From Austwickia chelonae NBRC 105200 (lineage in GTDB: Bacteria; Actinomycetota; Actinomycetes; Actinomycetales; Dermatophilaceae): a stretch of 64,000 bases of DNA. The notes below the pieces were generated by a model. That model had not been told where the DNA came from. It saw only the letters and a program-made list of their open reading frames with translations, and searched no databases. The stretch is from positions 372,001 to 436,000 of the forward strand of contig NZ_BAGZ01000005.1 of assembly GCF_000298175.1 (NCBI RefSeq). Reading direction: 5' to 3'. The position numbers and the translations under genes were made by a program. This document shows positions 49,559 through 61,010 of this stretch, one piece after another. Numbering within the stretch: position 1 is the stretch's first letter; each line of letters starts with the position of its first letter.

Positions 49559-52546
49559 TCAACGAAACAGCTGGCCGTACGAAAGTGCCGGGTTCGTCCG
49601 CTGCGATGGCCCACCGAGCACTCCGGACCCGATGAGGAGACTGACCCGGTCAGGGCCGACCCCTGCATCCTCGGACTCGATGACCACAGAGATCTCGTTC
49701 TCCCCAGCAGCGCGCAGGAAACCGCCAGGCACCACGAATTCCTGCTGAGGGCCTACATGATTGATGTAGTTACCGGTCAGCCAACCGTTGACGAAGATGA
49801 TCGCCCGGTAGCGATCCTGGCGGAAATGAACATCGTCGACACGCAGACTCACCGGGGTATCTTGTCCCCCAGGCAGATCGAGACGCACAGCAGTGCGGTA
49901 CCAGCGCACCCCTGGACGGTCGGCATTCAGTCCTGCCACCGGGACGAAACCGGCGGCAGGAGCCTGCGGCAGATGCCATCCCTGCCGTTCACCGAAGAGG
50001 CCACCGTTGTTGTAGGCCCCACGAGCGACATCCACTGGGCGGCGTCCACCGATCGCTCCTTGCATCTTCCATGAGATCCTGCCCGCGCCGGGGAAGGCTA
50101 CGTCCCACAGTCCCCTGCCGTGTTTGGACAGGCTCAAGGCAGCGCCGTCCACAGGATGACCGTTGTTGCGGACCAGGATCGCGACCTTCGCCGGTTCGCC
50201 ACGGCGCATAGCCTCCCGGGGGACCTGATGAATTCTGGGGCCGTCGCCCTGCGATCCGACGTAGATGCCGTTCACCCACACCATCGCCATGCCGTGTCGA
50301 CCGGTGCGCGCCGAGACCGTGACCGTACTTCCCGAAGTGTGCGGGGTGAAGGTTCCTCGGTACCAGAGGTCGCCGTGATCGAATCCGTAGTCCTCGCCGG
50401 TCATCACGATGCGTTGGGCCGGTCCCGGTCCGTGCAGGAGGTTCGCGGCCTTCTTCTTCGTCAGCGGGGTCCACGTCCGGTCGTCGAACTCGGGGAGACG
50501 TTCGGGGTCCGATTCTCGACCGACCCACGTGTCCAACGAGATATGCCGTCCCGTGGGTCGGGGACCAGGCAGGTCGGCGACCAGCGCGCCGAAGGCGTCA
50601 CGGATGGCCGGTACGGGGGTGCCGTTCCAGGTCAACGAGGTGACCCCGGCAGGAGCATCGACTTGCAGCCGACTGGCGGCAGCGGTGTCGCCACGCAAGA
50701 CGATCGTCGTGCCCTCCCGGATCGCCGAACGCACCAGGTCGACACCAGCGACCCGGATACTTCCGCCGACCGACAGGTCAGGGTGCCAGATCTGCCCGTA
50801 CGCGGCCCGGTCGGCGAAGATCAACGAGAGTTCCTCACCGACGGACCGTAAAGTCACCCGGCCGATCCCCTGGTGGACGGCGTTGATGCGTAGCTCATGG
50901 CGGGCTTGGTCCCAATGGGTCTCGATGCCCCGGTCTGCGATGACTTCCGGGCGGACGGCCAGACGTAGAACGGTCTCGCTCTCCTGGGAGAGCGGCGCGG
51001 TGAACGTCGCAGTGGCCCGCCCCGGCGACACCGTCGAGCCGGCGAGTTGTGCTGTGGTGTATTGGATCCGATGAGGTCCGACCTGATGGTCGACGACGAG
51101 CGCGAGCGCATCCCGTCCGTTCAGGACGACCGATGCCTCTTCCTTCTGCGGAACACGCCGGTAGGTGTGCCCATCGACAGTCAGTGGGAGGGAGAACCGG
51201 CTGATGCGTTCGTCGTTGGAGTGACGATGCCGGAGCGTCAGCAGCCGGGTCGGACCGTCCTCGGCCTGACGCCATTCGGCGAGCACCCGGCGACGGTCCG
51301 GCCCCTCGATCCCGTGAACCCGGCCGACCGCCCTGGTAGCTGCCAAAGCAGGCACGGCACGCTGAAGTTGGGCGAATTCCTTCTGAACGACAGCTTTTCC
51401 GCGCAGTGTCCGGTTCTCCGCGATCGGGGCGCCGTAGTCGTACGAGGTGAATCCCGTGGACGGATCCCCGGTCCATCCCCAGTTCGTCCCGCCGTACTGC
51501 ATATAGGTGTTGTGCATGGTCACCCCGTTGGCGAGATTGTTCACCGTGAACTGCCGGGTGAACCGGTCGTCGACGAACCGGGCGCAGTCATCTGCCTGAT
51601 GGCTGGCGCCCCAAGGGGTGAAGGCTCCGCCCTGTCCTTCAGCGATGAATACCGGAGTACTCGGTGAGTAACGGCGGACCCGCCGTTCGAAATGGGTGTC
51701 GAGTCGGGCCCGAGCACCTGCGCAGGAGAACAACAACGGGTAGAAGTCGAATGCGTACAGTTGGAGAGACTCGCCTCCCGGTTTGCCCGGCGCGTACCAG
51801 CCGTGGCCGGGGCCGTAGTCATTGTGGAAGAGCGGAACAGTAATGCCATTGGCCCGAACTGCCTGCGCCAAGGTATTCAGGTAACGTCCGGTGAACGGGG
51901 TGAACATCTCGTTCTCGATCTGATGGGCGATGACGGTGCCACCGCCGTCGGTCAGTTGATGTCGCGCGATGATCCGATCGACAGCAGCCAACCACTCGAG
52001 CTCGGCGGCAAGGTTGTCCGCAGCACCCACTCGAGGCAACCCGGCGTAGGTACTCAGATACGGGGGGAAACCGCCCATACTCGTCTCCGCCTGAATATAC
52101 GGTCCTGGCCTGGCGATGACATACAGTCCCACCTCTTCCGCCATCTGCAGGAGGAGGTCGACGTCACGGACCCCCGAGAAGTCGAAAACCCCCCGCTCCT
52201 GGCTGTGGTACCCCCAATGGAAGTAGAGGCTGACCGTGTTGAACCCGGTGGCCTTCATCTTCTCCAACACGTCACGCCACAGATGCTGCGCTGGTAAACG
52301 CCAGTAATGGAATTCTCCGGAAATGATCGGCGTACGCCGACCGTCGACGACCAAGGAATGCTCGTCCCAAGTAAGGGCATGGCCCCGAACATCTCGAAGC
52401 GGAACAGTCGGGGCCGTGACCACAGGTGATGCCGCGACGGCCTCGGCCCGTAACGGGGCCGCCGCCACACGGAAGGGCATGGCTGCCACCCCAGACAGCA
52501 ACACCGCCCCCACGGCGGCACCGACCCTCAGCCGACTCCCGGACAT
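49559..52546 (-). CDS. secreted glycoside hydrolase family 35 beta-galactosidase
   Basis: 995-residue secreted enzyme. The start ATG 52546 has GGGGAGGGGAG upstream; a signal peptide (LRVGAAVGAVLLSGVAAMPF) follows. The TIM barrel holds GEFHYWRLP, GGFPPYLST and the acid/base Glu in QIENEM (about residue 213), with the nucleophile in FIAEGQGG (about residue 303). Jelly-roll domains make up the C-terminal half. It should release terminal beta-galactose from external glycans. No transporter or regulator is adjacent; codon use appears less GC-rich than the surrounding operons, a possible sign of acquisition. Confidence 0.9.
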   Translation of the reverse strand: MSGSRLRVGAAVGAVLLSGVAAMPFRVAAAPLRAEAVAASPVVTAPTVPLRDVRGHALTWDEHSLVVDGRRTPIISGEFHYWRLPAQHLWRDVLEKMKATGFNTVSLYFHWGYHSQERGVFDFSGVRDVDLLLQMAEEVGLYVIARPGPYIQAETSMGGFPPYLSTYAGLPRVGAADNLAAELEWLAAVDRIIARHQLTDGGGTVIAHQIENEMFTPFTGRYLNTLAQAVRANGITVPLFHNDYGPGHGWYAPGKPGGESLQLYAFDFYPLLFSCAGARARLDTHFERRVRRYSPSTPVFIAEGQGGAFTPWGASHQADDCARFVDDRFTRQFTVNNLANGVTMHNTYMQYGGTNWGWTGDPSTGFTSYDYGAPIAENRTLRGKAVVQKEFAQLQRAVPALAATRAVGRVHGIEGPDRRRVLAEWRQAEDGPTRLLTLRHRHSNDERISRFSLPLTVDGHTYRRVPQKEEASVVLNGRDALALVVDHQVGPHRIQYTTAQLAGSTVSPGRATATFTAPLSQESETVLRLAVRPEVIADRGIETHWDQARHELRINAVHQGIGRVTLRSVGEELSLIFADRAAYGQIWHPDLSVGGSIRVAGVDLVRSAIREGTTIVLRGDTAAASRLQVDAPAGVTSLTWNGTPVPAIRDAFGALVADLPGPRPTGRHISLDTWVGRESDPERLPEFDDRTWTPLTKKKAANLLHGPGPAQRIVMTGEDYGFDHGDLWYRGTFTPHTSGSTVTVSARTGRHGMAMVWVNGIYVGSQGDGPRIHQVPREAMRRGEPAKVAILVRNNGHPVDGAALSLSKHGRGLWDVAFPGAGRISWKMQGAIGGRRPVDVARGAYNNGGLFGERQGWHLPQAPAAGFVPVAGLNADRPGVRWYRTAVRLDLPGGQDTPVSLRVDDVHFRQDRYRAIIFVNGWLTGNYINHVGPQQEFVVPGGFLRAAGENEISVVIESEDAGVGPDRVSLLIGSGVLGGPSQRTNPALSYGQLFR

Positions 52547-52582
52547 CGACTCCCCTCCCCTGCGCTCACCACCCCGCATCGC

Positions 52583-53728
52583 TCACACCGTGCTCGTGAC
52601 CTCGGCATACTCGTGGAACCGGCTCACCCGTGCCGCGATCCGACAGGTCACCTCGTAAGGGATGGTGTCCAAAGCGGCGGCCAGGTCGGCCGCAGTGATC
52701 TGCTCCGCACCGTCCTCGCCCAGGAGAACCACCCGATCACCCACGGCGAGACCTCCGTCCGGGCCTGCGTCCACCATCAACTGGTCCATGCACACCCGGC
52801 CCACCACCGGCAGTCGACGCCCACCCACGAGCACCTCGCCCCGGTTCGACAAACGGCGGTCATAACCGTCGCCGTATCCGACCGGGACAGTCGCCACCTG
52901 CGTGGCCACCGGGGCCGTCCAGGTACGTCCGTAGCCGACCGTGCCCCCCTGAGGCACCTCCTTGACGAAGGACACCCGCGACTCCCAGGTCAACGCCGCG
53001 CGCAGAGGCACCGTACGCGGAACCCCTGGGTCGGGATAACTCCCGTAGAGCATCACCCCCGGACGGACCATGTCCATCCACGAATCCGGATGTGCCAGGA
53101 CGCCGCCCGAATTCGCGGCATGAGCGATGACCCTCCGCCCCAGATCTTCCTCCACCGCCCGATGGCAGTCGGCGAAAGTCCCGATCTGGGCCGCAGTGAA
53201 CTCGTCCTGAGCCGGCGTGTCACTCACCGGGAGATGGGTGAACATCCCCTCCAGGTACAGATGCGGACACTCCTCGGCGATCCTCCGAGCCAGGTCAGGA
53301 GCCGCTCCCGGCAGGCAACCGATCCGGCCCATCCCCGTATCGACCTTCAGATGAACCGCCGCAGACACCCCCAGATCGGCAGCCGCCCGCTCGACGACAT
53401 CGATCGTCTCCGCATCGCACACCGTCAAGGTCAGCCGGTGAGCCACCGCGGCCCGGGCCTCCTCCGGGAAGACCGGCGACAACTTCAGGACCGGCAAGGA
53501 CACCCCGGCCTCCCGGAGCGCCACCCCCTCCGGGACCGTCGCCACCCCGAAGAAGTCCGCAGCCCCCGCCTCCTGCACGGCTGTCGCGATCGGCACCGCC
53601 CCGTGCCCGTACCCCTCGGCCTTGATCGCCATGAGGATCTGCCGATCCGGGCCGACCCGATCACGGACCGCCGCCAGATTCGCGAGCACCGCATCCAAAT
53701 GCACCCGGGCACATGTCTGGTAAAGCAT
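52583..53728 (-). CDS. alr: alanine racemase (PLP), last gene of ornithine operon
   Basis: Fold-type III PLP enzyme interconverting L- and D-alanine. Lys36 in AIKAEGYGHG binds PLP (the common motif is KADAYGHG). HLKVDTGMGRIG, GYGDGYDRRLSN (catalytic Tyr region) and VGRVCMDQLMVD show a complete N-terminal barrel and C-terminal beta domain. The start ATG 53728 has AGGGTGG upstream; GTG 53737 is possible. It lies about 20 bp after orr and is probably co-transcribed. The known D-alanine product of the ornithine pathway thiolase gives it a catabolic role besides cell-wall supply (inference). Confidence 0.9.
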   Translation of the reverse strand: MLYQTCARVHLDAVLANLAAVRDRVGPDRQILMAIKAEGYGHGAVPIATAVQEAGAADFFGVATVPEGVALREAGVSLPVLKLSPVFPEEARAAVAHRLTLTVCDAETIDVVERAAADLGVSAAVHLKVDTGMGRIGCLPGAAPDLARRIAEECPHLYLEGMFTHLPVSDTPAQDEFTAAQIGTFADCHRAVEEDLGRRVIAHAANSGGVLAHPDSWMDMVRPGVMLYGSYPDPGVPRTVPLRAALTWESRVSFVKEVPQGGTVGYGRTWTAPVATQVATVPVGYGDGYDRRLSNRGEVLVGGRRLPVVGRVCMDQLMVDAGPDGGLAVGDRVVLLGEDGAEQITAADLAAALDTIPYEVTCRIAARVSRFHEYAEVTSTV

Positions 53729-53751
53729 GATGACCACCCTAGATCTCAGAT

Positions 53752-54831
53752 TCAGCCGCGTAAGGCCACCTTCTGGACGTAATGGGATGTCGACAGGGCC
53801 AACAGCGCCGCATAGGACGGCCAGAAACCGACGGGTCCGCCCAACCGGATATCACCGACAGCATCCTCGACATCGAGAATGAGATGGTCGCTGCTGGCCC
53901 CGACGATCAAGATGCCCTCGTCCTGAGGGGTCAACCCGTCGATCGCGGCATCCTGACGGCCGATGTTCACGATCGCCCTCAACCTGGTCCCCCGATCCGG
54001 GAACTCCGGGCACTCCCCGAAAGCATTCTGCCCACGGTCACCGATCGGAACACTCGGCTTACGTTCCAGCTCCACGACCTCCCCGACGAGACGCACCGTG
54101 TCCTGCCTGGTGGACGGCCACGGGCTGCGGTCGAGGACGTTCCGGCCCAGGACGATCGACTCCCCGATCCGGAAATGGTTGATCTCCTTGGGCATCTGCC
54201 CGCTCGCCAACAGCGGAAGACTCGAAGAGTTCCCTCCCGAGAGCAAGCCCAGTTCCAGGCCGGTCGCTGCGCGGCAGGCGTCCCGCACCGAGATCAGCCC
54301 CCGCATGTTCTCCACACTGGGAATGACACCGCCGTAACAGGCCAGGTTCGCGCCCAGGCCCAACAGGTCCAGATGCGGGAGCCGCGCCGCCTCCGTGACC
54401 AGCTCCACCGCACGGTCGGGCCACACCCCTTCCCGCAGGTCCCCGATGTCGACCATCACGACGACCCCGTGGCTGGTTCCGGCCTGCCCGGCCGCCTCCG
54501 AAAGGATCCGCAGGGTCGACAGGCTCGAGTTCAACGTGATGTCCGCACAACGCACCACGTCCGGCACCGACGACGGCGAAGGGATCCGCAGCAGCATCTG
54601 CGGCAATCCCGTGCCCAACCCGGCCAAGCCCATCAGGTTCAGGATCCGACTGTCCGCGAGCTCGTCCACGCCCCCGTCGACCAAGGCGCGCACCACCGCG
54701 GGATGCGCGCAGGTCACCTTCGCGACCCCGGCCACCCGGGCCCCGTGCGCACGACACAGACCCACCACGGCCCGGGCGTTCTCCGTGATGCGATCCGGAT
54801 GGATCTCCAGGCGGGGCGTACGCAGATACAC
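53752..54831 (-). CDS. orr: ornithine racemase
   Basis: PLP-dependent racemase of the alanine-racemase N-domain family, single-barrel type, making D-ornithine from L-ornithine. PLP Lys38 lies in AGVAKVTCAHP. Further family motifs are VVMVDIGDLREGVWP, GLGANLACYGGV, LSGGNSSSLPLL and INHFRIGESIVLGRN. The length of 359 residues matches the clostridial enzyme. It begins with GTG six bases after the reactivase stop. It supplies the substrate for the aminomutase encoded upstream. Confidence 0.9.
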   Translation of the reverse strand: MYLRTPRLEIHPDRITENARAVVGLCRAHGARVAGVAKVTCAHPAVVRALVDGGVDELADSRILNLMGLAGLGTGLPQMLLRIPSPSSVPDVVRCADITLNSSLSTLRILSEAAGQAGTSHGVVVMVDIGDLREGVWPDRAVELVTEAARLPHLDLLGLGANLACYGGVIPSVENMRGLISVRDACRAATGLELGLLSGGNSSSLPLLASGQMPKEINHFRIGESIVLGRNVLDRSPWPSTRQDTVRLVGEVVELERKPSVPIGDRGQNAFGECPEFPDRGTRLRAIVNIGRQDAAIDGLTPQDEGILIVGASSDHLILDVEDAVGDIRLGGPVGFWPSYAALLALSTSHYVQKVALRG

Positions 54832-54837
54832 GTGAGA

Positions 54838-56196
54838 TCACCGGCCTTCGTCGAAGGAATCCGCCCACCGGCGCAGCGTCCTGCTCACCTCGTCGGGATA
54901 GGTACGCGCCAAGGTGCCCAAAGCGGAGAAACGGTAACGGTCGTCGACCAACAGGTGGGCGTCCACCGGCGGCAACAGATGCCGTCCCGGACCGGCGCAC
55001 ACGGCTCGGAGGACATCAGCCGCACCAGGCACCTTCGTCAGGGCTCCGCCGGTGGCCACCACCCAACGCACCGCGGTCAGGTCCTTCCCTCTGACGACCT
55101 GACGTTTCCCGGTCGGCGTATAGATGTCGGCCAAGGTGCCGGCGTGTCTGCGGATCCCGGCCTCCACCGCGCGTTCGGCCAGCCAACGGGTCAGGGCCCG
55201 CTCCCGGTCGGTGCCCGGCATCGCGGTGAGCACCTCCAGCCGTTCGGCCCAGTCCGGTTCACCCGAAGCTTGGGCCACTGTGCGAGCGTTCACGTACACC
55301 CCGAGGTCACCTTCGACGGTACGTTTCGCCCGTGGTTCGGGTTCCACCACGGCAGCGGACAGTTCGAGCGATCCGTCGGTGACCGAGTGCACATCGGTGG
55401 TGGCCCCGCCGACGTCGACCACCAGGACGTCTCCGATGGCCTCGGCGAATCTCTCCGCGGCCATCAACACCGCACCTGGCGTGGGGAGGACCTCCGCCTC
55501 GGTGAGCTCGGCCAAGGCACCCATTCCTGGTGCGTGGACGATGTGTTCGCTGAAGACGTCATGGATCAGCACCCGGAGGGGATCCACATTCAACACGTCC
55601 ACATCCGGGAAGACGTTGTCCGCCACCAGGACCCGAACGCCATGCTCGGCGAAGGTCTCGGTCACCGCCGGGCGGGCCGCCACATTCCCGGCGTAGACCA
55701 CCGGCGGATGCTCGGGCGATTCACCCAGGGCGGCGGCCAGATCCCGGGCGTTGGCGATCACGATATCCCGCTCCCCGTAATCGACCCCACCGGCGAGCAG
55801 CACGATATTCGGCTTCAGGGAGTGCAGCTCGGCCAGGTCGTAACCGGTCAGTCGGCCGGCGGTGACCTGACCGACGATCGCCCCCGCACCCAAGGACGCC
55901 TCCCGGGCCGCGCGGGTGGTCATGCTCGCCGTCAGACCGTGCACACTCATCCGGAGACCACCCGCTGCGGAGGAGTTCACGTGGGTCTCCACCCCGGTGA
56001 CATCGATACCGAAGCGGCCACGCAGATCCTCCCGGGCGGCCGCCACGCCGACACCGACATCGCCCTCGGCCACACTTGTCGGGGCGAAACCCTGACCGAC
56101 CTGCTCCAAGGCCCCGTCGCGGTGGGCGAAGGCATTCACCTTCGTGATAGTGCTGCCCACCTCGACGGTGACCACATCGGCCCGGTCGGTACTCAT
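54838..56196 (-). CDS. GlmL/MutL-like reactivating ATPase for the B12 aminomutase
   Basis: 452-residue protein of the ASKHA (actin/Hsp70-like) superfamily, MutL/GlmL family. The phosphate-1 loop is VTVEVGSTITKVNAF, the adenosine/phosphate-2 region VVDVGGATTDVHS, and the C-terminal loop VVATGGALTKVPGA. Such proteins, encoded beside glutamate mutase (glmL) or ornithine aminomutase, are thought to reactivate or protect the cobalamin enzyme. It overlaps the oraE stop by ATGA and orr follows after six bases. It is assigned to OraE by position; this is inference, but well supported by clostridial synteny as I recall it. Confidence 0.85.
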   Translation of the reverse strand: MSTDRADVVTVEVGSTITKVNAFAHRDGALEQVGQGFAPTSVAEGDVGVGVAAAREDLRGRFGIDVTGVETHVNSSAAGGLRMSVHGLTASMTTRAAREASLGAGAIVGQVTAGRLTGYDLAELHSLKPNIVLLAGGVDYGERDIVIANARDLAAALGESPEHPPVVYAGNVAARPAVTETFAEHGVRVLVADNVFPDVDVLNVDPLRVLIHDVFSEHIVHAPGMGALAELTEAEVLPTPGAVLMAAERFAEAIGDVLVVDVGGATTDVHSVTDGSLELSAAVVEPEPRAKRTVEGDLGVYVNARTVAQASGEPDWAERLEVLTAMPGTDRERALTRWLAERAVEAGIRRHAGTLADIYTPTGKRQVVRGKDLTAVRWVVATGGALTKVPGAADVLRAVCAGPGRHLLPPVDAHLLVDDRYRFSALGTLARTYPDEVSRTLRRWADSFDEGR

Positions 56197-58487
56197 GCCG
56201 TTCCGTCAGCGTTCACAGGTGTTGACGAGGAGCCCTCGACGCTGCCCGCCTCACGCAGGCGGAGGGTCTTCACCATGGCGTCGACGACGTCGATCCCCTT
56301 GGTGCCCCGCCCGAAGGTGGCGTCGAGGCCGGTTTCGGCGGCCATCTCCCGGTTGACCTGAGTGCCGCCGGCGACCAGGACGAAACGGTCCCGGATACCT
56401 TTCTCGACACACAGTTCGGCCAGCTTGCGCATCATCTGCCGGTGGATGTCGTTGTGGCTGATGATCGTCGAGATGAGGATGGCGTCGGAACCGGTCTCGA
56501 TGGCGGCATCGACCAGTTTCGTCAAGGGCACCGACGTCCCCAGATAGTGGTAAGCCACCCCGTACTTCTCGATGCCGCCGTGCTTGATGTCGAGGATCTC
56601 CCGCAGACCGACGCTGTGTTCGTCCTCGCCGACGGTCGCCGCGACGACGGTCAGCTGCCGAGCGGAGACCTCGGCGCGCAGTTCGTCCTCGGGGAGACGG
56701 ATCTCCTTGACCGGAATGGTCAGGGAGTCCCTGCGGACATCGAAGGTGACCTTGCCCTTGACCTCGACGAAACAGCCTTCGGCGGCCTGCATGACCTGGA
56801 TGTTGACCACGACGGGGTCGTCGAGGCCCATCCGCTTGGCCATCTCGACGGCATACACCTCGGCGACGTCCTCGGGTTGGGCCACGAAGAACTGGACCAG
56901 CACTGTGCCGTCGCCCGACCATTCGGCCTCGGGCCGGATCAGCTCACCGGAACGGTACGCTTTCGTAGCCGCGAGCCTCGTGTCGGCATTGTCCTGCTCG
57001 TCGAGTTCATCGATGAAGACGATCTTGTCGGGCTCGCACAGGGTGCAGCCGCTGATGGCTGCACAGGGCGCGGTGTCCGCGCCGGTGGACACGCCCATCT
57101 CGACGAGCAGATCGAGCGGCGGACGGCTGTTGCCGAAATGGTCACAGACTGGCGCCCAGTAGTCGTCGTCCCGCTCGATGATGGACCCGGCGCCCACCCC
57201 GCCGTCGGCGGCCCGGGCGATGCCGTCACCGTTGCGTTCGGGGTATTTGGCGGAGTCGACGAAGAACCCTTTCTCGACAGCGGCGAAGTAGCCGCCGTCG
57301 GCGACGACCTCGGCAAGGAAGGCGAGTGCGCGTTCCTTGATGTCGCGCACCATTTCCGGGAGGGGCCCCTCGGTGCGGAGGGAGACGAGGTCGTTGATCC
57401 CGTCGAGGGCCGACCAGGTCTGTTTGACGGTTTGCAGACCGCGGATGTTGTTGTAGTGCCAGGGGACGTTACGTCCTTCGTCCGGTGTGATGGTGGATTG
57501 GATGTCGGCCCTGGTCAACATGGAGATCAAGGTGTCGACGGTGTGGGTGCGGACGGCTTCCTCGATGTCGGCTTCGATGTAGCGGGTGTTCTGCTGAGCC
57601 CGCATCTTGTACTCGGAGAAGAAGTCACGCAGGGCGATGGCATAGGGCAGGTCGAACCAAAGTTTCGGTGCCGGAGGTGAGTTCGGGGGGACGGTGGACA
57701 GGCCGATAAGTCCTTTGTCCATGCCGACGGCCACGGAGAACGCCGTGTTCAGGCCGTGTTGCACCATCAGTTCGGGCATGACGAGCCAGCCGGCTTTGGC
57801 GGTGGCATTGGCATTGTGTGCGCCGTCGATCTGCAGGATCCCTGCTCCGCACATCACCTTCTTGGCTTCGGCGGCGTCGACGAAGCTGCGGTACATGTTC
57901 ACGTTGCGGTAGAGCACGTTGTACTGCGGGTCCTGGTGTGCCCCGTTGACACCTTCCTCGGCGAAGAGCACGGCCACTTCGGGGCCGGCGACCCCGGAGA
58001 CGTAGGAGTGGAAGTTGATGGGGCGACCGACTTCGTCCTCGATGGCGTCACAGGCCTTGCGGGAGGCTCGGATCTGCTTACGGGTGATGGGGACTCCGCC
58101 GATGCCTTCCGGAGTTCCTTCCAGGAGTCCGTCGATATGGGACTGACCGGTGGTCCGGATGACCATGAGATGGTCGGCGCCGTGCCAGGCGGCCATCCTC
58201 ATCCGGCGGACGTCGTCCTCGAAACGCCCGGAGGCGATCTCGGTGGTGACGACACATTTGGGCTGGGGGTCGATGCCGTCGAAGTACTTGCTGGCCGGTA
58301 GCCCGAGAGAGTTCTTCAGCGGCTGGGCCGCGTCTCGGAAGTGGAAGGGTCCCATGGGGATCCCCTTGGCCGGCACCCGCCGCCAGGTCCATCCTTTCCT
58401 GCGGGGACGGTAACCGTCGAGATCTTCCATGAGGGTGTCGACATCGAGCTTGGTGTTGGGCTCCAAGGGTCCGAAGGTGGTGCTCAT
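56193..58487 (-). CDS. oraE: D-ornithine 4,5-aminomutase large subunit (B12 and PLP)
   Basis: Adenosylcobalamin- and PLP-dependent mutase converting D-ornithine to 2,4-diaminopentanoate by moving the 5-amino group to C4. A TIM-barrel part (residues 1-550) is followed by a Rossmann B12 domain with DEHSVG (DxHxxG; His624 as lower cobalt ligand) and Lys635, eleven residues after it. That spacing equals His618/Lys629 of the Clostridium sticklandii enzyme, where the Lys forms the resting imine with PLP. The length is 764 residues. It overlaps oraS (58484-58487) and the reactivase gene (56193-56196). GTP or cobalamin riboswitches are not seen. Confidence 0.93.
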   Translation of the reverse strand: MSTTFGPLEPNTKLDVDTLMEDLDGYRPRRKGWTWRRVPAKGIPMGPFHFRDAAQPLKNSLGLPASKYFDGIDPQPKCVVTTEIASGRFEDDVRRMRMAAWHGADHLMVIRTTGQSHIDGLLEGTPEGIGGVPITRKQIRASRKACDAIEDEVGRPINFHSYVSGVAGPEVAVLFAEEGVNGAHQDPQYNVLYRNVNMYRSFVDAAEAKKVMCGAGILQIDGAHNANATAKAGWLVMPELMVQHGLNTAFSVAVGMDKGLIGLSTVPPNSPPAPKLWFDLPYAIALRDFFSEYKMRAQQNTRYIEADIEEAVRTHTVDTLISMLTRADIQSTITPDEGRNVPWHYNNIRGLQTVKQTWSALDGINDLVSLRTEGPLPEMVRDIKERALAFLAEVVADGGYFAAVEKGFFVDSAKYPERNGDGIARAADGGVGAGSIIERDDDYWAPVCDHFGNSRPPLDLLVEMGVSTGADTAPCAAISGCTLCEPDKIVFIDELDEQDNADTRLAATKAYRSGELIRPEAEWSGDGTVLVQFFVAQPEDVAEVYAVEMAKRMGLDDPVVVNIQVMQAAEGCFVEVKGKVTFDVRRDSLTIPVKEIRLPEDELRAEVSARQLTVVAATVGEDEHSVGLREILDIKHGGIEKYGVAYHYLGTSVPLTKLVDAAIETGSDAILISTIISHNDIHRQMMRKLAELCVEKGIRDRFVLVAGGTQVNREMAAETGLDATFGRGTKGIDVVDAMVKTLRLREAGSVEGSSSTPVNADGTA

Positions 58488-58861
58488 CGGACGCCCCCTG
58501 CCGTGGGGAACAGACCGTTCAGACAGTTCCCGTCCTCGGCGACGAGCCGGGCTGCGGTGCGCAGGTCGACACCTTCACGGTGCGCGAGACGTACCAGCAC
58601 GTGGCCGGCCCCCTTGCCGAGAAGTCCGGCGTCGGCGATCCGATCGATGACGGCGTGGCTGCTGACGCTGTCGATCCCCATCCTCAGGAGCACCGAGCGC
58701 TCGATCGACGGGCTGGTGTGGGTCCGGGCCAGTTCGACCATGGGCGTGACGAGCTCACCGGCAAGTTGCCAGAAACGTTCTTTGAGTTCGTCGTCGCTCA
58801 GGCCGGAGAACTCGGCACGACGTGCCTCGTAGGCGGCCATCCGGGCAGTCATGTCGGTCAC
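58484..58861 (-). CDS. oraS: D-ornithine 4,5-aminomutase small subunit
   Basis: 125-residue helical protein matching OraS (about 121 residues in clostridia). FSGLSDDELKERFWQLAGELVTPMVELARTHTSPSIERSVLLRMG and SSHAVIDRIADAGLLGKGAGHVLVRLA are characteristic. The small subunit completes the PLP site with OraE. The start is GTG 58861 with GAAGAGGTG upstream; the oraE start overlaps its stop by ATGA, so the subunits are made in a fixed ratio. Ord lies 53 bp upstream. Confidence 0.93.
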   Translation of the reverse strand: MTDMTARMAAYEARRAEFSGLSDDELKERFWQLAGELVTPMVELARTHTSPSIERSVLLRMGIDSVSSHAVIDRIADAGLLGKGAGHVLVRLAHREGVDLRTAARLVAEDGNCLNGLFPTAGGVR

Positions 58862-58914: not shown

Positions 58915-59955
58915 TCAGACGCGTCGGCGGTAGGCGGCGGCTCCCATGAGCGCGGCGGGAACCGGTAGGTCGAGCATGTTCTTCAGGCCGGGGGTTGCCT
59001 CGACGACACGCGGGATGGAGTTGACGGCGATGCCCTTGGTCGCGGTTCCTCCGGCATATTCGGGGGTGATCTGCATGTTGATCTCGGGGACGCCCTTGAT
59101 GGTGATGTAGTCACCGGTGCCTTGCCCTTCGAGTTCGGGGAGCACCTGTTGGGGGTGGACCAGGGTGAGGACGACTTCGTCCCCGCGGTAACCCAGGAGG
59201 GTCTGTTTGCAGCCGGCGACCATGCCCGGTTCCACGACGACGTGCGGTGTTTCGCGACGCACCGTGGAGACGATGGCTTCTCGGCGTTGTTCGATCCGGT
59301 CGATGTCCAGGCCGAGGGCGTCGGAGATCATCCGGGCCGATTCGGGGAAACCGATGTGGCCGTCGACGCTGCCGTCCTCGACGCCGGCAGCGAATTCCTC
59401 CGGGGTGAGGCCGACGCCCTGGGTGCGCATCACGGTGGGACCGTACGGGGAGAGGTCGTTGACCCGTCGGGCTTCGACGGAAGTGACCTGGTGGCATCCT
59501 GCGGTCAGCGCGACGACGAGCAGGTCCATGGACAGGCCGGGGTTCACTCCGGTGCCGAGCAGGGTGACCCCGTTGGCTTTGGCGAGCTCGTCGAGTTCGG
59601 CGGCGAGTTCGGGGTTCTGCGCTTCGGGCGAGGCCATCTCCTCGGCGATGGAGACGCAGTTGATCCCGGCGTTCAGGACGGTACGCAGGTCGGCCATCTG
59701 CTCGGAGACCCAGGAGGTGGTGGCGATGACGACGCAGTCGACCTCGTCTCGGCGCAGGATACTGCCGGGGTCGTCGGTGACGGTGACGCCGAGGGATCGT
59801 CCGATGTCGAGGACGTCACCGAGGTCACGTCCGACGTATTCGGGCCGGGTGTCGATCCCACCGACGAGTTCGAGCCCTTCCTTGTCGAGGACCAGACGGG
59901 CCATCCCGCTGCCCATGGCGCCCAGTCCCCATTGCACGACGCGAATGGTTGACAT
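58915..59955 (-). CDS. ord: 2,4-diaminopentanoate dehydrogenase
   Basis: 346-residue NAD(P)-dependent dehydrogenase; it oxidises 2,4-diaminopentanoate to 2-amino-4-oxopentanoate and ammonia. A Rossmann fold opens with VQWGLGAMGSGMARLVL; IATTSWVSEQMADLR and LLGTGVNPGLSMDLLV place it in the dihydrodipicolinate reductase-like family to which Ord belongs. ITIKGVPEINMQI near the end matches. First gene of the operon, with a leader of about 150 bp carrying a stable hairpin. Confidence 0.9.
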   Translation of the reverse strand: MSTIRVVQWGLGAMGSGMARLVLDKEGLELVGGIDTRPEYVGRDLGDVLDIGRSLGVTVTDDPGSILRRDEVDCVVIATTSWVSEQMADLRTVLNAGINCVSIAEEMASPEAQNPELAAELDELAKANGVTLLGTGVNPGLSMDLLVVALTAGCHQVTSVEARRVNDLSPYGPTVMRTQGVGLTPEEFAAGVEDGSVDGHIGFPESARMISDALGLDIDRIEQRREAIVSTVRRETPHVVVEPGMVAGCKQTLLGYRGDEVVLTLVHPQQVLPELEGQGTGDYITIKGVPEINMQITPEYAGGTATKGIAVNSIPRVVEATPGLKNMLDLPVPAALMGAAAYRRRV

Positions 59956-60236: not shown

Positions 60237-61010
60237 ATGATCGACGGTCGGGTGCAGGCTGCAGTCAATCTTCATGCGGTTCTCAGATCCTTGGAAGATC
60301 TGGTGTCCTTGGATCCTCGTGCTGCGGAGATGGTGCAAGGCGCACATACGAGGGTGACTTTCCGGGTTCCGGGGATTGCTCCGTTGTCGTTGACCTTCAC
60401 CGACGGACGGGCGTCGTCCGGGCCGCGGAGCGGTCGCGCACCGGCCGGCCATGACGATGTCACCTTGGCGTTCGCCTCGGCGCGTCATTTCAATCGGGTG
60501 ATCTCCGGTGAAGGTTTTCCACTACCGGTGCGAGGGTTTTCCAGGATGGCTTTCCTCCGGAAGGATCTTCCCTTGTTGTCCGGCCGTTTAGAGGCATTGT
60601 TGCGGCCTCTCGACCGAGAGATGCTCTCGCCTGAGGAACGGCGTATCTCATGGATCATGACGGCCTATATCGCTTTCTTCTCCATCGCTCCGGTGGCCAA
60701 TCTCGACGAGCGTGGGCGGGCCAATGCTGCGCGGATGGCCGACGGCGATATCTCGGTCGAGGTGGTGGACGGCCCCGGGCTCACCGTCCGTTCTCGCTCG
60801 GCCAGGGTGGAGGTCGTCCGAGGGGCTCCGGCGGATCCGCGGGCGCGGATGGTCTTCGATTCGGTGTCCACGGTCGGTGCGATCCTCGAAGGTTCGTTGG
60901 ACACCTATGCCGCGATCGGTGACGGACGTCTTGCCGTGTCCGGTTATATTCCGTCGCTGGACAATATGAACAAGTTGTTGTCGGGGGTCTCCTACTATCT
61001 CGCGGCGTGA
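60237..61010 (+). CDS. SCP2-like (sterol carrier-type) protein
   Basis: 257-residue protein. The first half (FRVPGIAPLSLTFTDGRAS, HDDVTLAFASARHFNRVISGEGFPLPV) and last part (PADPRARMVFDSVSTVGAILEGSLDTYAAIGDGRLAVSGYIPSLDNMNKLL) resemble SCP2 lipid-binding domains. A long helical middle (LSPEERRISWIMTAYIAFFSIAPVA) could contact lipid or membrane. The ATG at 60237 has GAGGAGGGGAC just upstream. It is divergent from ord across 281 bp. Role in the ornithine pathway is not apparent; the family call is from pattern only. Confidence 0.6.
   Translation: MIDGRVQAAVNLHAVLRSLEDLVSLDPRAAEMVQGAHTRVTFRVPGIAPLSLTFTDGRASSGPRSGRAPAGHDDVTLAFASARHFNRVISGEGFPLPVRGFSRMAFLRKDLPLLSGRLEALLRPLDREMLSPEERRISWIMTAYIAFFSIAPVANLDERGRANAARMADGDISVEVVDGPGLTVRSRSARVEVVRGAPADPRARMVFDSVSTVGAILEGSLDTYAAIGDGRLAVSGYIPSLDNMNKLLSGVSYYLAA

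Follow-up and report, generated by a model that had tools for sequence, protein, structure and literature searches.

The window, that is, the whole stretch of 64,000 nucleotides of Austwickia chelonae DNA that was analyzed, contains a compact group of genes for oxidative ornithine breakdown in the order ord-oraS-oraE-mutL-orr-alr, all on the minus strand (table 1). OraE, OraS and Ord are encoded together and each scores above the cut-off of its family (NF040743, PF16552 and NF040740, respectively). The Orr-like protein, although full length, remains with 392.5 bits below the strict 'exception' cut-off of 480 bits in NF040742, and the GlmL/MutL-like protein with 499.9 bits below the NF040744 cut-off of 600. 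The junctions from ord to orr are 4-nt overlaps or gaps of no more than 53 nt, and alr starts 23 nt past the stop of the Orr-like gene (position 53752) on the same strand; from this spacing and common strand we infer that alr is co-transcribed with the ora genes. The operon in the window lacks ortAB. An Rfam scan of the window returned three tRNAs only and no riboswitch, and scans of it with promoter and terminator consensus sequences gave no more matches than shuffled sequences did.

Table 1. Genes of the ornithine locus and its neighbors in the window
Feature	Coordinates	Strand	Basis
GH35 beta-galactosidase	49559..52579	(-)	
alr, alanine racemase, 381 aa	52583..53728	(-)	TIGR00492 317.5 bits, PF01168 + PF00842; terminal conserved operon gene
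orr, ornithine racemase-like PLP enzyme	53752..54831	(-)	NF040742 392.5 bits over 350/351 positions; same place in relatives
GlmL/MutL-like, probable B12-mutase reactivation factor	54838..56196	(-)	NF040744 499.9 bits, PF13941 453 bits, TIGR01319 above cut-off
oraE, D-ornithine 4,5-aminomutase large subunit	56193..58487	(-)	NF040743 1284 bits (cut-off 800)
oraS, D-ornithine 4,5-aminomutase small subunit	58484..58861	(-)	PF16552 OAM_alpha 130 bits (cut-off 29.7)
ord, 2,4-diaminopentanoate dehydrogenase	58915..59955	(-)	NF040740 522.6 bits (cut-off 400)
Divergent 257-aa protein	60237..61010	(+)	no NCBIfam or Pfam match

An earlier, sequence-only reading of this DNA had placed alr at the end of the operon. 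This holds for the conserved genes, of which alr is the last, but in the window a secreted-looking GH35 beta-galactosidase gene follows it after 3-40 nt in the same orientation. The latter was considered as an additional operon member and rejected, for it does not adjoin alr in the two nearest species; in the genomes labeled G001 and G002, no GH35 gene lies between alr and a metallo-beta-lactamase-like gene, and its presence in the window suggests that it was recently inserted into the operon end. The divergent 257-aa protein is likewise a neighbor of the ornithine locus in G001, G002 and G003, including where this locus is reduced to orr-alr.

The reading frame of alr is complete: it starts with an ATG at 53728 and stops at 52583. 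Use of the in-frame GTG at 53737 would lengthen the product by 3 aa, but relatives likewise start with MLYQT. Over its whole length the product scores 317.5 bits with TIGR00492, the equivalog model of alanine racemase (cut-off 168), and both Pfam Ala_racemase domains are found in it. It is not a member of the catabolic DadX model NF002970 (158.8 bits, cut-off 600), and it also scores below the cut-offs of the broad-specificity racemase model NF009879, or PRK13340 type (143.2 against 434 bits), and of the serine racemase VanT catalytic subunit (282.6 against 460 bits). The closest solved structures are alanine racemases (4y2w, 260 bits), lysine and broad-specificity racemases reaching 124-130 bits. 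All nine active-site positions that were checked, among them the PLP lysine and the catalytic tyrosine, are kept in the window Alr, and eight of the nine are invariant across 44 operon-type and 26 other alr sequences; we take these positions to be K39, Y43, K129, R136, R219, Y265, M312, D313 and Y354 in Geobacillus numbering. Judged by these matches, the gene is that of a genuine PLP-dependent alanine racemase, with predicted activity on alanine.

The linkage of alr to ornithine genes was surveyed in 80 OraE loci from a species-level collection of genomes. A close set was defined by OraE at least 69% identical to that of the window, presence of orr and at least 1.2 kb of sequence after it (n = 32). 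In 26 of these 32 clusters alr lies no more than 76 nt after orr, and the linked clusters come from Chloroflexota, Actinomycetota, Acidobacteriota, Riflebacteria, Myxococcota and Spirochaetota, with taxa as named in the records and many of the genomes being MAGs. Two Cutibacterium species have alr 3.6-3.7 kb further along. The adjacency of alr and orr is no coincidence, because the genomes mostly hold only one or two alr genes. Among the more distant OraE clusters, mostly of Bacillota, alr was linked to orr in none of 24; since the Bacillota clusters that mostly lack a linked alr include those resembling the characterized clostridial ones, the alr step is not indispensable to the pathway. The Halanaerobiales present another arrangement, in which alr is located 44-74 nt after oraE in all five clusters and no orr is linked. 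By its recurrent place, alr can be regarded as integral to one operon version, ord-ortA-ortB-oraS-oraE-mutL-orr-alr, in which it comes last. As a separate observation, the Spirochaetes genome G159 has two diverged alr-like genes adjoining each other (L210 2305-4577), away from its ora cluster, which is without alr.

Phylogenetic analysis of alr (74 rows, a quick method with SH-aLRT supports and no bootstrap, Halanaerobiales being counted apart) places all 34 operon-type sequences, along with five alr sequences from relatives that do not adjoin ora genes, in a single clade (SH-aLRT 100), and the actinobacterial housekeeping alr sequences in a separate clade (SH-aLRT 99). Over 31 loci, moreover, the distances of Alr track those of OraE (Spearman 0.67) as tightly as the distances of Orr do (0.65; permutation p = 0.0005 in each case), which argues that alr has travelled with the operon.

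The sequence-only reading had also proposed a check for a second alr in the genome and predicted that ortAB would be present there, and both have been found. The second alr, 37% identical to the operon copy, lies at C26:318691 within the block nnrD-alr-abhydrolase-tsaE-tsaB-rimI-tsaD, which houses the alr of relatives too, and by this context it is of the housekeeping type. The ortA and ortB genes are located at G000:C18 (G000 being the window genome; L007 9005-9322 and 9319-10773), unlinked to the ora operon, and their products score 124.6 bits with NF040739 (cut-off 70) and 822 bits with NF040741 (cut-off 550), respectively. In G001 and G002 ortAB are unlinked as well, and the OrtB of all three genomes groups with Bacillota sequences (starred set, 21 rows) and not with the operon OrtB of Dermatophilaceae. 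Apparently, the operon's own ortAB were lost and then replaced by Bacillota-type ortAB in the genus of the window; that they were replaced rather than simply lost argues that the whole pathway is in use, or under selection. Downstream of ortAB (L007 10783-14335) follow genes for a protein without Pfam match, a PIG-L-like deacetylase, a PatB/MalY-type PLP enzyme and an ArsR-type regulator, a gene order that G002 (L205) keeps. Also encoded in the window genome are an arginine deiminase-like protein of full length, which scores 462.6 bits against a cut-off of 489, and an alanine dehydrogenase with 535.6 bits against a cut-off of 392, the latter being an enzyme that had been named beforehand as a possible user of L-alanine.

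These genes can be combined in the following scheme. Orr would convert L-ornithine into D-ornithine, from which OraSE, with B12 and PLP, would form 2,4-diaminopentanoate; Ord would then produce 2-amino-4-oxopentanoate together with NH3 and NAD(P)H, and OrtAB, encoded elsewhere in the genome, would yield acetyl-CoA and D-alanine. The C2 configuration of D-ornithine is kept through OraSE and Ord, so that thiolysis gives D-alanine. That oxidative ornithine breakdown yields D-alanine, the premise of the sequence-only reading, is stated in the genome paper of Clostridium sticklandii (PMC3091704). The operon Alr would turn this D-alanine into L-alanine, and alanine dehydrogenase would convert the latter into pyruvate, NH3 and NADH. 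We consider it probable (about 0.72) that the operon alr is a genuine alanine racemase gene, integral to the ornithine operon, which serves catabolism by converting D-alanine to L-alanine; its flux direction, induction and substrate preference are inferred. Both alr copies are kept in the window genome, and thus the operon copy is there probably mainly catabolic. The catabolic reason previously proposed for alr gains support from a link that recurs over six phyla plus the Halanaerobiales, but it would not be the only one, given that many relatives have no other alr.

Indeed, the operon-linked copy is the only alr found in 29 of the 36 genomes with an operon-linked alr, a count subject to the incompleteness of MAGs, less so for the isolates of Mobilicoccus, a relative within the same family as the window genome that is represented by G063 and G015, and Cutibacterium, and for the single-contig G043. 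The slot of the housekeeping gene between nnrD and the abhydrolase gene is filled in G000, G002, G003, G037 and G152 and empty in G001, G043, G063, G156, G015 and G075, where nnrD adjoins the abhydrolase gene with no room for alr; within the family of the window, the empty slots coincide exactly with single-alr genomes. In G075, which is devoid of oraE, an intact alr comes after an orr remnant of 49 aa. G016 and G064, in which the flanking abhydrolase gene of the slot had no match and the synteny of the operon flanks was read instead, are also without oraE and keep nlpC-alr-paaD (L228 9340-11545 and L229 9185-11390), nlpC and paaD being the genes at either end of the complete operon in G043 and in Mobilicoccus. 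In G003, orr-alr occupies the ancestral place by itself, next to the customary flanking genes (L202 5756-8022, G003:C38), and ord-ortAB-oraSE-mutL a second locus (L041). The sequences of this second locus are more distant, the pathway being split and apparently partly replaced. The simplest reading of such presence, absence and synteny is that, on several occasions, cell-wall D-alanine came to be supplied by the operon alr, which from then on could no longer disappear along with the rest of the operon. As the racemization of alanine is freely reversible, the reverse reaction of Alr would furnish the wall with D-alanine in genomes that have no other alr. The operon Alr would not be restricted to catabolism, and its status as sole alr in relatives is indirect support for alanine racemization by this enzyme. 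We give an even chance to the wider proposition that the operon alr, spread between phyla with the ornithine operon, has repeatedly displaced the essential housekeeping alr, the cell-wall enzyme being now found at the operon end or as a relic. If true, ornithine oxidation would feed D-alanine straight into the cell-wall pool in such hosts, with the expression of alr coupled to the catabolism of amino acids.

The same data could be taken to mean that the operon alr is kept mainly for cell-wall D-alanine, with a minor role in ornithine catabolism. The frequency of single-alr genomes, the six relatives with an empty slot and operon-type alr alone, and the survival of this alr after the loss of ora genes all fit such a role; however, the window genome retains its housekeeping alr in the usual place, so that a second copy for the wall only would be redundant, and wall supply predicts neither that the alr clade and its distances follow OraE across phyla nor that the link reappears in another order in all five clusters of Halanaerobiales. 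We regard this explanation as unlikely. Since the clusters of Halanaerobiales include a gene of the alr family but lack a linked orr, and since lysine and broad-specificity racemases occur among the enzymes with Alr fold, the operon Alr might alternatively assist Orr in making D-ornithine, as an additional racemase of ornithine or, with broad specificity, of basic amino acids. Alr as a stand-in ornithine racemase was rejected because all five Halanaerobiales genomes possess a full-length Orr elsewhere (417-441 bits, hence also under the strict cut-off of 480). In the window, orr lies directly upstream of alr, whose product attains 143 of 434 bits with the broad-spectrum model and is matched best by alanine racemase structures, and a clade providing the sole alr of many genomes must be able to racemize alanine, unless D-alanine has another route; an ornithine-directed function is, consequently, most improbable.

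Very improbable, too, is that D-alanine is excreted or oxidized directly and that the linkage of alr reflects passive hitchhiking with no role in ornithine breakdown. C. sticklandii does excrete alanine and is without alanine dehydrogenase (PMC3091704), and the window genome encodes a DadA-like (D-amino-acid dehydrogenase-like) protein that might use D-alanine directly, as an alternative to Alr. Yet this protein scores well under the cut-off (182 against 383 bits) and 4 of 12 operon-bearing genomes have no DadA-like match at E <= 1e-15, whereas alanine dehydrogenase is over its cut-off in 11 of the 12 checked; adjacency conserved over deep divergence further argues against accident.

With the conversion of D- to L-alanine as the preferred reading, alr would add a conserved step at the point where the oxidative ornithine pathway has been left open, the fate of D-alanine, and the alr-bearing operons of Anaerolineae and other phyla suggest that this step is widespread. 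We found no description of it in a search of open-access literature, which did not cover Fonknechten 2009 (J Bacteriol 191:3162). The displacement proposed above would also clearly exemplify how an essential housekeeping gene is replaced by a copy from a mobile catabolic operon, with traces of replacement in the form of vacant slots, operon remnants reduced to alr and a swapped thiolase.

The same pathway is encoded by the oxidative L-ornithine cluster of C. sticklandii and Clostridioides difficile (orr, ord, ortA, ortB, oraS, oraE; PMC8803604, PMC3091704). Like the clostridial cluster, the window genome has OraE, OraS, Ord, OrtA and OrtB above cut-offs, plus Orr-like and GlmL-like proteins; unlike it, its version of the operon ends in a linked alr, which the Bacillota clusters examined mostly lack, and its ortAB are unlinked and of another lineage. 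The actinobacterial housekeeping Alr of the nnrD-alr-tsaE cluster is of the same family and predicted active site as the window Alr, but differs in belonging to a separate clade, in sequence (37% identity) and in genome location. Alike in principle is DadX of the dad operon in enterobacteria and Pseudomonas, which is a second alanine racemase encoded in a catabolic operon beside a housekeeping alr. DadX turns L-alanine into D-alanine for DadA, whereas the window Alr, having ora genes as neighbors, is expected to work in the net direction from D- to L-alanine.
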